Shown here: positions 14,166 through 17,749 of the stretch, piece by piece | Numbering within the stretch: the first letter of the stretch is position 1 | How the letters are laid out: every line of letters begins with the position of its first letter | IMG/VR virus record: IMGVR_UViG_3300025652_000563 | Coordinates: 1 to 23,650 of that record | Direction: 5' to 3' (one strand) | Source: a virus | Length of the DNA stretch: 23,650 nt | Position numbers and translations under genes: made by a program | The notes under the pieces: generated by a model | What the model was told of the DNA's origin: nothing | What the model saw: only the letters and a program-made list of their open reading frames with translations | The model's database searches: none

Positions 14166-14726
14166 ATGAAACTAAAAATCAACGAATTAAAACCAAACGA
14201 AAGCAATCCTAGAATAATCAAGGAGGCTAAATTTAAAAAACTTGTAAAGTCTATTCAGGATTTCCCTGAGATGTTAGAGTTGCGACCGATAATACTTGAC
14301 GAGAACAATGTTATACTCGGAGGTAATATGAGATACAAAGCTTGTGTTGCAGCAGGGTTGAAAGAAGTACCTGTTAAAATAGCTAAGGGATTGACAGAAG
14401 AACAGAAAGAAGAATTTATTGTAAAGGATAATGTAGGATTCGGGGAATGGGATTGGGATGTATTAGGAAACGAATGGAACAATGAAAAGCTAGGAGAATG
14501 GGGAATGGATGTTTGGCAGCCTGAAGAAGCTGTAGACTATTCTGTATTAGATGACCTAGACTTAGGAAGCACTTTGTCAGAAAAAGAAGCAGGAGTAAAG
14601 AGAGCAATCCAAATAGAATTTGAACCTGAGCATTATGACGAAGCTGTATTACTAATAAACACAGCAAGAAAAGCAGGTAGGAATGTAGGCTTAACTGTTT
14701 TAAACGCTTTTAAGAATGAAGCATAA
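14166..14726 (+). CDS. ParB/Srx-like nuclease-domain protein
   Basis: The first ~90 residues match the phage-type ParB/sulfiredoxin-like domain: NPRIIKEAKFKKLVKSIQDFP (14-34), LRPIILDENNVILGGNMRYKAC (39-60), then VPVKIAKGLTEEQKEEFIVKDN. GGNMRYKA corresponds to the GxxRYxA nucleotide-binding signature. Trp-rich GFGEWDWDVLGNEW (91-104) follows, often seen where these domains sit next to DNA-modification genes. Members bind or cut DNA or hydrolyse CTP; which applies here is unknown. It heads the block containing the glycosyltransferase, the dioxygenase and terminase, and overlaps the next gene by 11 bases. Confidence 0.75.
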   Translation: MKLKINELKPNESNPRIIKEAKFKKLVKSIQDFPEMLELRPIILDENNVILGGNMRYKACVAAGLKEVPVKIAKGLTEEQKEEFIVKDNVGFGEWDWDVLGNEWNNEKLGEWGMDVWQPEEAVDYSVLDDLDLGSTLSEKEAGVKRAIQIEFEPEHYDEAVLLINTARKAGRNVGLTVLNAFKNEA

Positions 14727-15396
14727 TGTATATGTAATATCAGCAGGAAGATATGATAAACTCCCATTCAATGAAGAACAGAAAGGAAAATACATATTCT
14801 GTGTTAAAAATGGAGAAGGACAGTTATACAAAGATAATGGATGCTTGAATGTTTATGAGACAGGAAACTTGATGGACAGTAGGAACTTTGCTTTAGAACA
14901 CGCATTCAAACTTAAAAAGATATGCGTTCAGCTAAGTGATGATATTAAAAAGGTAGTAGTAAATAAGAACTTTGGAGAGCCTGATAAAGTAGAACTTGAT
15001 TTCGCCATTGAAGATATAGTTTCAAGGTTCATTAATGTAAAAGGAGTAAAGCTATTAGGAATACCACCAACAGATAATTACTTCTTTGCTGCAAAGTTAG
15101 TAAGCGTAAACACTTTCTGTATTGGAGATATGTTATTTGTAAAACCATCAGACATTAGATTTGATACTCAGCTCACTCTTAAAGAAGATTACGACTTTAC
15201 TTTACAACATAAGCAAAGGGGAGATGTTATAAGGTATCAGAAATACTTATTTACTTTTGAGCATTATTCTAACAAAGGAGGAGCTGTTGATGTAAGAGAT
15301 GATAAAGAAGAACAGAAAAACATAATGATACTCAAATCAAAGTGGGGAGATAAGGTAAGACTAAACTCTAAACGAAAAAACGAAATACTAATATGA
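14716..15396 (+). CDS. GT-A-like glycosyltransferase, TET/JBP-associated type
   Basis: The 226-aa protein has features of a compact nucleotide-sugar glycosyltransferase: VYVISAGRYDKLP at the start, NLMDSRNFAL (51-60), an acidic QLSDD motif (72-76) in the place of the metal-binding DxD, and LKEDYDFTLQH (155-165) with H183 further on. This matches my memory of glycosyltransferases found beside phage TET/JBP genes. It would attach a sugar to a hydroxylated base made by the neighbouring dioxygenase. It overlaps ParB by 11 bases and the dioxygenase by ATGA. Sugar and acceptor are unknown, and a non-DNA acceptor is possible. Confidence 0.6.
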   Translation: MKHNVYVISAGRYDKLPFNEEQKGKYIFCVKNGEGQLYKDNGCLNVYETGNLMDSRNFALEHAFKLKKICVQLSDDIKKVVVNKNFGEPDKVELDFAIEDIVSRFINVKGVKLLGIPPTDNYFFAAKLVSVNTFCIGDMLFVKPSDIRFDTQLTLKEDYDFTLQHKQRGDVIRYQKYLFTFEHYSNKGGAVDVRDDKEEQKNIMILKSKWGDKVRLNSKRKNEILI

Positions 15397-16199
15397 AGAC
15401 ACTAAAGCTAGAGCAAGTAGAACACAATAAAAAAATAGGTAAAGACTGTCCTTACTATGAGCCAAATGTAAAAGAAGATTGTTTACTAGAAGTTGATGGT
15501 GAGATTGTAGGTTTTTACATAAGAGATGTAAAGGAGTATAGCGAAAGGTTGAATCTATTATTAGCAGTAGCCAACAAAGAGTTCAGGAGTGATAATGTGC
15601 CTAAGACAATCCTAGATAGAATGAGTACAGTACAGTTAAGTAAAACAGGAATGACAAGAAAAGAAGCAAGGAAAATAGGTGTAAGTCAATATAGCACAAT
15701 ACTTGGTTCTATTCCTCCAAGACCTGTAATGCGTAGACCTTACCCAAACATATCATCAGTACATAGAGTTGAAACCGCACAGACATTTGTAAAAGCAATG
15801 TGGGGAGCTTGTTTAGAAGCAGAGCAAATTATAAAACAACTTACACCACACATATATGAAAGGCAATTAGAATTACTTGAAGACGTTAAAGATGAATGGA
15901 AGTTTGGAACAATGTACACAGGTAGTATATCTAACTTTAACATATCAGCACCATTTCACAGAGATACAGGAAACATTGTAGGAACAGTAAACATAATCCT
16001 CACTAAAAGAAATAACGCTAATGGTGGGTGCTTAAATGTGCCTGACTATAATGTAACCTTTGAACAAGCTGACAACTCAATGTTAGTTTACCCTGCTTGG
16101 AAGAATGTACACGGAGTAACACCAATAAAACCAATAGCAGATAATGGGTATAGAAACAGCTTAATCTTCTATCCATTGAAAGCATTTAAAGGAATATAG
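15393..16199 (+). CDS. TET/JBP-like 2OG-Fe(II) dioxygenase
   Basis: The C-terminal double-stranded beta-helix has every expected catalytic residue: H189-R-D191 in APFHRDTGN, GG (211-212) before LNVP, H240 in NVHGVTP, and R254 in YRNSLIFY for 2-oxoglutarate. HxD...GG.L..P...W..HGV...R.S is the pattern of TET/JBP base hydroxylases rather than prolyl hydroxylases. The N-terminal half (QYSTILGSIPPR, RRPYPNISSVHR) is a conserved-looking extension of unknown role. The likely reaction is oxidation of a base methyl group, 5-methylcytosine or thymine, in DNA. It is coupled to the glycosyltransferase (ATGA) and ends 1 nt before terS. Substrate not determinable from sequence. Confidence 0.72.
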   Translation: MKTLKLEQVEHNKKIGKDCPYYEPNVKEDCLLEVDGEIVGFYIRDVKEYSERLNLLLAVANKEFRSDNVPKTILDRMSTVQLSKTGMTRKEARKIGVSQYSTILGSIPPRPVMRRPYPNISSVHRVETAQTFVKAMWGACLEAEQIIKQLTPHIYERQLELLEDVKDEWKFGTMYTGSISNFNISAPFHRDTGNIVGTVNIILTKRNNANGGCLNVPDYNVTFEQADNSMLVYPAWKNVHGVTPIKPIADNGYRNSLIFYPLKAFKGI

Positions 16200-16200
16200 T

Positions 16201-16560
16201 ATGGACGAAAGTAGACACATAAAAAAGGAAAGCATCTTAAAAGCTTTAGAAAGTAGCTTAGGAGTTGTAACAGTTGCTTGTAAGTCAGCAGATGTTCCAC
16301 GTTCAACATATTATAAATGGCTAAACCAAGATGAAGAATTTGCAGAAGCCGTTAGAGATATTGAAAACATAGCATTAGACTTTGGGGAAAGCCAATTACA
16401 TAAACAGATTGGAGATGGTTCAACTTCAGCGACTATCTTCTTCCTAAAGACTAAAGGAAAGCGTAGAGGTTACATTGAAAAGTCTGAACTAGATATAACA
16501 TCAGGGGATAAGGTAATCAATATGCCTGTAATAACATTCGTGAACACTGATACTGAATAA
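16201..16560 (+). CDS. terS: Terminase small subunit
   Basis: This 119-aa protein has an N-terminal helix-turn-helix (about 12-42, LGVVTVACKSADVPRSTYYKWLNQD), a helical oligomerisation segment (FAEAVRDIENIALDFGESQL) and SATIFFLKTKGKRRGY, the usual plan of small terminases. It recognises the packaging site and hands DNA to the large subunit. The size and position directly before terL support the call. Its final bases overlap the only possible beginning of terL in the +1 frame. Confidence 0.8.
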   Translation: MDESRHIKKESILKALESSLGVVTVACKSADVPRSTYYKWLNQDEEFAEAVRDIENIALDFGESQLHKQIGDGSTSATIFFLKTKGKRRGYIEKSELDITSGDKVINMPVITFVNTDTE

Positions 16561-17749
16561 GAAATACAATCCACTATTTGAATCTGATGCTAGATACTTT
16601 ATAATTACAGGAGGTAGGGGTTCAGGAAAGTCTTTCGCAGTTACAGTCTTTCTTACTTTACTGACAATGACTAAAGGGATAAGAATACTCTTTACTCGTT
16701 ATACAATGGTATCGGCTCACTTGTCAATTATCCCTGAATTCTTAGAAAAGATAGGGTTACTAGGATTTGATGAAGTCTTTAGCATTAACAAGCAAGAAGT
16801 CCTTAATAAAAAAAATGGTTCAGATATATTATTTAGAGGTATTAGGACTTCAGCAGGTAATCAGACGGCTAGTCTAAAGTCATTACAAGGAATAAGCACT
16901 TGGGTATTAGATGAAGCTGAAGAACTTATTGATGAAAACATCTTTGACACTATTGACCTAAGTATAAGGGAAAAGAATATACATAATAGAATCATACTTA
17001 TATTGAATCCTGTAACTAAAGAGCATTGGATATATAATAGGTTCTTTGAGGAGAAAGGTGTTGAAGGTGGTTTTAATGGTGTTAAAGACAATGTATGTTA
17101 TATCCATAGCACTTACCTAGATAATATAGTAAACCTCTCAGAGAGCTTCCTAGAGCGTATTAAGAGCATAAAGCATACTAACTTTAAAAAGTACACGCAT
17201 AAAATCTTAGGAGGGTGGCTTGACAAGGCAGAAGGAGTAGTCTTTGACAATTGGAGTATAGGAGAATTTAATCCTGATGGACTTCAGACTTCTTGTGGAA
17301 TGGACTTTGGTTTTAGTGTAGACCCTGACTCCTTGACTGAAGTTGCTATTGATAAGAAGAAACGAAAGATATACCTAAAGGAACATATCTACAGAAACGG
17401 ATTGAAGTCAAATGAACTTGCTCAGATAGTTTTAGATAAAGTAGGGCAAAGTCTGATAATAGCTGATAGTGCTGAACCAAGACTGATAGCAGACCTTAGA
17501 CATTTGGGAGTAAACATCAAGCCTGTAAAGAAAGGAACTATCGAAAGTGGTATTACTCGTATGCAAGATTATGAGCTTATCATAACACCTGAATCTACTA
17601 ACATAGCTAAAGAGCTAAACAATTACATATACGCTGATAAAGGCTCTAAGCTTTACGTAGACAACTACAATCACGCAATAGACGGAATAAGGTACAATGT
17701 AATTTACCACCTAGACAATCCAAACGCAGGGAAGTATTTCGTTCAGTAA
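16547..17749 (+). CDS. terL: Terminase large subunit (non-ATG start, CTG proposed)
   Basis: Numbered from CTG 16547 (400 aa): Walker A GGRGSGKS (22-29), Walker B VLDEAEE (120-126), and an RNase H-like nuclease with D253 (MDFGFSVDP), D307 (IADSAEP) and D379 (HAIDGIRY). It is the ATP-driven packaging motor that also cuts concatemers. The frame opens after a TGA at 16541 and contains no ATG, GTG or TTG before Walker A; the first ATG (16667) would remove the P-loop. CTG 16547 gives a family-like N-terminus (MILNKKYNPLFESDARYF). CTG 16553, ATA 16550, a +1 shift from terS or a sequencing error are alternatives. Confidence 0.85.
   Translation: MILNKKYNPLFESDARYFIITGGRGSGKSFAVTVFLTLLTMTKGIRILFTRYTMVSAHLSIIPEFLEKIGLLGFDEVFSINKQEVLNKKNGSDILFRGIRTSAGNQTASLKSLQGISTWVLDEAEELIDENIFDTIDLSIREKNIHNRIILILNPVTKEHWIYNRFFEEKGVEGGFNGVKDNVCYIHSTYLDNIVNLSESFLERIKSIKHTNFKKYTHKILGGWLDKAEGVVFDNWSIGEFNPDGLQTSCGMDFGFSVDPDSLTEVAIDKKKRKIYLKEHIYRNGLKSNELAQIVLDKVGQSLIIADSAEPRLIADLRHLGVNIKPVKKGTIESGITRMQDYELIITPESTNIAKELNNYIYADKGSKLYVDNYNHAIDGIRYNVIYHLDNPNAGKYFVQ

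Follow-up and report, generated by a model that had tools for sequence, protein, structure and literature searches.

Results

The window, by which we mean the whole stretch of DNA analysed, is a 23,650-base IMG/VR viral record that is classed as linear and is probably a fragment. It carries a cassette of three genes followed at once by the two terminase genes:

14166..14726, plus strand: ParB-like protein, 186 aa (PF02195; phrog_498/620), a constant member of the cassette
14716..15396, plus strand: TAGT-type glycosyltransferase of GT-A fold, 226 aa (PF20691 below cut-off; phrog_842), the occupant of a variable slot
15393..16199, plus strand: TET/JBP 2OG-Fe(II) dioxygenase, 268 aa (PF12851; phrog_6059; AlphaFold model)
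16201..16560, plus strand: terminase small subunit, terS, 119 aa (phrog_4044, 6e-8; PF20901, 2e-4)
16544..17749, plus strand: terminase large subunit, terL (PF04466, 2e-26; PF17288, 1.4e-13)

The ParB-like and glycosyltransferase genes share 11 nt and the glycosyltransferase and TET genes share 4 nt (ATGA); a single nucleotide separates the TET stop codon from terS. The first-pass annotation had described three coupled genes with terS 1 nt later, encoding ParB-like, GT-A-like and TET/JBP-like proteins; coordinates, overlaps, families and folds all agree with that description. The cassette is not a chance arrangement, because nearly all of 160 viral contigs keep its gene order and because the models of both enzyme folds are confident. 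The terS gene, which adjoins the TET gene in nearly all loci of clade I (defined below), is a conserved downstream neighbour and lies outside the modification chemistry.

The start of TerL is unusual. The window has no ATG, GTG or TTG codon in the TerL frame (16544-16667) ahead of the Walker A motif GGRGSGKS, and the same gap is present in 10 of 15 loci examined, the window's own copy counted among them. A conserved CTG that overlaps the end of terS lies upstream in the TerL open frame, which suggests that TerL probably begins at this non-canonical codon and is coupled to terS.

The dioxygenase belongs to the TET/JBP family. It scores 40.4 bits against Tet_JBP (PF12851, cut-off 34.9) and matches phrog_6059 at 2.7e-51. 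A single-sequence search of the PDB returned nothing useful; a profile search gave matches. The AlphaFold model, built from an alignment of relatives (pLDDT 92.9), is closest to TET2 (Z 18.8 for 245 residues) and NgTet1 (Z 18.7, rmsd 2.7), followed by CcTET and CMD1. These four DNA enzymes span Z 16-19, and the first non-TET fold is FTO at Z 14.4. The iron ligands H189, D191 and H240 and the 2OG-binding R254 are invariant in 54 homologues; the first-pass annotation had placed exactly these residues in a TET/JBP arrangement. As a member of this family, the enzyme is predicted to oxidize a 5-methylpyrimidine in DNA.

This family is poorly labelled in the databases. TET/JBP oxygenases in NC_020847.1, NC_011044.1 and other RefSeq phage records carry the name 'queuine tRNA-ribosyltransferase', apparently taken from a misnamed PHROG (phrog_6059), and a member in Mycobacterium phage PRodriguez is called 'DpdA-like tRNA-guanine transglycosylase'. 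We rejected the queuine reading, as profile and fold both identify a 2OG-Fe(II) TET/JBP oxygenase.

The active site differs from those of TET2 and NgTet1 at the position of a cytosine-contacting histidine. Y260 occupies the base-stacking position, and L262 falls at TET2 His1904 and NgTet1 His297, as judged from structure ranges and profile alignment (model residue 268 matches TET2 1910 and NgTet1 303). In TET2 and NgTet1 these histidines contact the cytosine. Asn at 194 together with Leu or Ile at 262 is found in the window's clades and in the aligned actinophages; P12024L, Cr30 and HTVC112P have Asp at 194 and Arg at 262, and the TET of phage Melnitz, which does have a C5-methyltransferase, has Asp at both. 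Leu262 in place of histidine fits a different base, without proving one. Loss of this residue is also compatible with 5-methylcytosine (5mC), because CcTET is active on 5mC and lacks the conventional cytosine contact (PMC12730594).

The glycosyltransferase groups with the TAGT (TET-associated glycosyltransferase) family. The match to PF20691 itself does not reach the cut-off (22.6 bits, E 1e-4, cut-off 27.5), and the protein matches phrog_842 (beta-glucosyl-HMC-alpha-glucosyltransferase) at 2.5e-10; two homologues in the same slot score above the PF20691 cut-off (L014 at 48.0 bits, L055 at 41.7 bits). The family is that of the T6 beta-glucosyl-HMC-alpha-glucosyltransferase, and the T6 enzyme has been modelled as GT-A (PMC13216743). 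Our AlphaFold model of the window enzyme, also built from an alignment of relatives (pLDDT 90.3), matches GT-A enzymes, led by GalNAc-T2 (Z 13.9) with TarS and TarP at Z about 11.3. D75 of the metal-binding motif S-D75-D76 (QLSDD) is invariant in 31 homologues and D158 of KEDYDF nearly so. The first-pass annotation had read a GT-A-like enzyme from these two motifs, and the model bears this out. It had also called for structure searches of both enzymes: these put the dioxygenase with TET2 and NgTet1 rather than with protein- or lipid-modifying families, and the glycosyltransferase in the GT-A fold, where family placement points to TAGT. Its suggestion of possible base hypermodification is strengthened by both placements.

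The third protein has a ParB_N/ParB-CTPase domain with a GGNMRYKA motif (PF02195, 27.6 bits, cut-off 26.3) and a conserved C-terminal region. Homologues occupy the same position in most relatives. We propose that it acts as a DNA-targeting or scaffold subunit, a role suggested by its constancy in the cassette and by known fusions of phage ParB folds to DNA methyltransferases (PMC12704722). One relative, CPAG_00033 of Prochlorococcus phage MED4-184, is labelled 'DNA methylase'. It aligns with the window's ParB-like protein (32% identity), and so we infer no methylase from that label.

The gene between ParB and TET is repeatedly replaced. Two scans of viral contigs yielded 160 loci that fall into two clades, one (clade I) containing the window and the other (clade II) centred on Prochlorococcus phages MED4-184 and MED4-117. 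The order ParB, TET, terS is kept in almost all of them. Of the 162 loci that result when the two isolates are counted, 72 have an FkbM methyltransferase in the slot, 71 a single TAGT and 7 a P-loop kinase; the slot is empty in 6, holds two TAGTs in 1 and a Gly_transf_sug protein plus a TAGT in 1, and is cut off in 4. The slot TAGTs themselves fall into many subfamilies, with identities down to about 20%.

In a phylogeny of 129 TET proteins, the class of the slot gene changes at least 12 times and its subfamily at least 40 times. Within clade I, with genes clustered at 50% identity, the TET tree requires no change for ParB, 1 for terS, 9 for terL and at least 34 for the slot. Near-identical neighbours can flank different occupants: L136 and L166 are 96% (ParB), 92% (TET) and 93% (terS) identical in DNA and carry FkbM and TAGT, respectively; L067 and L077 (94%, 92% and 96%) carry TAGT and kinase. 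Slot subfamily differs in 210 of 580 pairs whose ParB and TET DNA are both at least 80% identical. The slot gene is thus exchanged, not merely divergent, and ParB and TET form a constant core. The glycosyltransferase of the window is one among several interchangeable occupants, which the first-pass annotation had not seen.

The pattern extends beyond the two clades. A distant TET branch (Nonlabens phage P12024L and relatives) has the same decorator families beside TET, and its kinase is 50% identical to the slot kinase. Pelagibacter phage HTVC112P has the order ParB-TET-FkbM, and in a divergent MAG locus (L199) TET directly follows ParB. A genome scan gave only three distant loci. The slot kinase is remotely related to actinophage kinases (hhalign probability 95%, E 2e-8).

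Several loci are individually unusual. Two slots hold tandem genes, a TAGT pair (L034:8599-10004) and a Gly_transf_sug (PF04488) gene with a TAGT (L064:6-1396), which suggests a two-sugar decoration. The slot protein of L198, a betaproteobacterial MAG contig (5075-6004, 309 aa), matched no Pfam family; by eye it resembles a GT-B glycosyltransferase and is possibly a further slot type. In Streptococcus phage Javan291 (L003, 3970-5765), a ParB-like gene and an unambiguous TAGT gene (63 bits) lie directly before terminase, and the stretch examined contains no TET. In P12024L (L090/L172; signature D194/R262), TET and TAGT are followed by an N6/N4 DNA methylase (PF01555), without a C5-methyltransferase.

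Which base would the oxygenase act on? In the characterized phage pathway a C5-methyltransferase makes 5mC, which TET oxidizes (PMC12730594). The first-pass annotation had seen no such methyltransferase in the window, and a profile search with PF00145 agrees within this 23.65-kb fragment. PF00145 likewise had no match in the other 24 clade I records tested or in the 38-kb phages MED4-184 and MED4-117, and matched 2 of 25 additional clade II contigs; this makes 2 of 51 clade I and II relatives, most of which are fragments like the window, which limits what these absences can say. The search does recover the HhaI-like C5-methyltransferase that abuts the TET of Melnitz. We therefore set aside a C5-methyltransferase elsewhere as the default explanation. 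The two positive contigs are L125 (G028:C1:19966-20502), with the gene about 4 kb upstream of the cassette, and L131 (G029:C1:3402-4013); these enzymes may supply the oxygenase or may be unrelated anti-restriction genes. Supply by a thymidylate-synthase-type dNMP hydroxymethylase was also rejected, as PF00303 is absent from the window and from 34 relatives.

PF00145 and PF00303 are both missing from six actinophages that carry related oxygenases (Nigel, Tonitrus, Terij, CloverMinnie, Prairie and Prince). In three of them (CloverMinnie, Tonitrus and Prince) an amino acid:DNA transferase (ADDT, PF18724) and a P-loop kinase (PF18751) lie beside the oxygenase; Nigel, Terij and Prairie have related TETs without ADDT. 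Both enzyme types are familiar from the chemistry of 5-hydroxymethyluracil. Such ADDT/kinase sets are annotated as thymine hypermodification in the literature (PMC11955845), families of this type are tied to thymidine hypermodification (PMC9599517), and the Prince oxygenase (gp2) is itself annotated 'thymidine hydroxylase'. ADDT is absent from 30 clade I and II records, a set that includes L005, a near-identical relative of the window, rather than the window's own record.

The first-pass annotation had raised thymine as an option, and the rarity of C5-methyltransferases (2 of 51) and the thymine-hypermodification enzymes beside the oxygenase in half of the six actinophages now favour it. On these genomic grounds we judge thymine to be the probable target, likelier than 5mC. 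That the cassette serves DNA base hypermodification of some kind is very likely.

Modification of DNA about to be packaged had also been put forward. The conserved neighbour on which that idea drew is real, as terS follows the cassette in the two close clades as well as in several actinophages. Arthrobacter phage Prairie, by contrast, has the cassette far from terminase, and in P12024L and HTVC112P several kb lie between the two. A packaging link is possible; the position beside terminase may simply reflect expression timing.

Discussion

We propose a post-replicative, thymine-directed modification cassette, a reading we hold to be somewhat better than an even bet. The TET/JBP oxygenase would hydroxylate thymine in phage DNA at its methyl group, yielding 5-hydroxymethyluracil (5hmU), and the TAGT glycosyltransferase would link a sugar to the new hydroxyl to give a base-J-like 5-glycosyloxymethyluracil. 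The ParB-like protein would bind DNA and direct or license oxygenase action at particular sequences. The constant core would consist of ParB and TET, with the gene between them serving as an exchangeable 'decorator'. Relatives would glycosylate the hydroxyl with other glycosyltransferases, phosphorylate it with the P-loop kinase, O-methylate it with the FkbM-type methyltransferase or leave it bare. Related phages appear to differ mainly by their tag, because the decorator gene is exchanged between near-constant neighbours. Such swapping would let them vary the DNA tag against modification-dependent nucleases and glycosylases of the host.

A more specific version is that this marine phage family has a ParB-TET core that hydroxylates thymine at directed sites, with the result that 5hmU in near-identical phages would be glycosylated, phosphorylated or O-methylated in different ways. 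Among the products would be bases, such as 5-methoxymethyluracil, of which we know no description in natural DNA. We put this forward tentatively, and on balance lean slightly against it.

The conventional alternative is that a C5-methyltransferase elsewhere in the phage genome or in the host makes 5mC, TET converts it to 5-hydroxymethylcytosine (5hmC) and the TAGT glycosylates that. This is the characterized chemistry of phage TETs (PMC12730594), and Melnitz places its C5-methyltransferase directly beside its TET. The two clade II contigs with a C5-methyltransferase count against thymine, and the closest characterized TAGT, that of T6, counts against 5hmU, as it uses hydroxymethylcytosine that is already glucosylated (PMC13216743). 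Host 5mC could also be the substrate. However, the other 49 of 51 clade I and II records, MED4-184 and MED4-117 included, have no C5-methyltransferase, nor has the window; a host supply would have to serve flavobacterial-type, cyanobacterial and actinobacterial phages alike; and the window group lacks the cytosine-contacting histidine and has N194/L262 where Melnitz has aspartates. We consider the 5mC route unlikely, if far from negligible.

Two further explanations weigh much less. If the slot exchange were ordinary phage mosaicism or chimeric metagenome assembly, its occupants would be functionally unlinked. The neighbourhood is indeed mosaic, since terL switches too, and metagenomic contigs make up most of the data. 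Nevertheless, on one tree the slot changes far more often than ParB or terS, nearly every gene found there encodes an enzyme that can decorate a hydroxyl, the decorator families also lie beside a second, divergent TET branch, and the configurations recur in independent contigs and in the isolates MED4-184, MED4-117, HTVC112P and P12024L; we regard this explanation as very improbable. A shade more improbable still is a target other than DNA (a protein, lipid or small molecule), the place beside terminase being incidental. Both superfamilies do hold protein- and glycan-modifying enzymes, and GalNAc-T2 is the top GT-A match by Z. Against this, DNA enzymes lead the fold matches of the dioxygenase with FTO behind them, the glycosyltransferase itself groups with TAGT, a gene for a DNA-binding ParB protein is a constant cassette member, and DNA-hypermodification kinase and ADDT families recur beside related oxygenases.

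It is already known that phage TETs occur with TAGTs, as the name of the TAGT family itself implies, and that the tailoring enzymes near them vary. What is new here is a variant in which an unchanging core is joined to one slot whose decorator can be swapped, with thymine as the probable base. A constant ParB-TET core with one often-exchanged decorator gene was not found in the searchable open-access literature, which is weak evidence of novelty; FkbM methyltransferases as TET-linked decorators were not found there either.

If our proposal of a thymine-directed cassette holds, a natural matched set of enzymes for marking the hydroxymethylated bases of intact DNA with different tags would exist in abundant marine phages, among them sequenced phages of Prochlorococcus and Pelagibacter. 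Unrecognized DNA bases would be predicted, the use of thymine or 5mC among phage TETs would become directly testable and a widespread mis-annotation would be explained. Moreover, with the decorator replaced dozens of times between unchanged neighbours, these phages would be a clean comparative example of selection acting on the tag, of the kind that an arms race against modification-dependent restriction should produce.

Comparison with known systems

The closest parallel is the phage TET, C5-methyltransferase and TAGT systems of Burke et al. 2021 (PNAS), as papers citing that work describe them. There, too, a TET/JBP oxygenase clusters with a TAGT-type glycosyltransferase, and tailoring enzymes vary between phages as they do among the window's relatives. 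The window type differs in having no C5-methyltransferase, here or in 49 of 51 close relatives, and in having a constant ParB, the N194/L262 signature and a single fixed slot at which the tailoring gene is exchanged.

The actinophage sets (Rhodococcus phage Tonitrus, Gordonia phage CloverMinnie and Mycobacterium phage Prince) likewise place a TET/JBP oxygenase gene, related to that of the window, behind a ParB-like gene. They share the active-site signature, the location near terminase and the lack of a C5-methyltransferase and a dNMP hydroxymethylase, and their kinase is related to the slot kinase. Unlike the window, they have ADDT and a kinase instead of one glycosyltransferase, in a separate cassette arrangement, and identity is only about 25-30%.

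The kinetoplastid base J pathway (JBP1/JBP2 and the J glucosyltransferase) follows the same logic that we predict here, thymine hydroxylation and then sugar transfer; the window cassette would place that logic in a phage. In contrast to JBP1, the 268-aa window protein has no J-binding domain, Tet_JBP being the only match in a profile search. The T-even glucosylation enzymes (alpha-GT, beta-GT and T6 TAGT) include the family with which the slot glycosyltransferase groups, that of the T6 TAGT. T-even phages make the hydroxymethyl group on dCMP before replication, whereas here it would be made on DNA, by the oxygenase.
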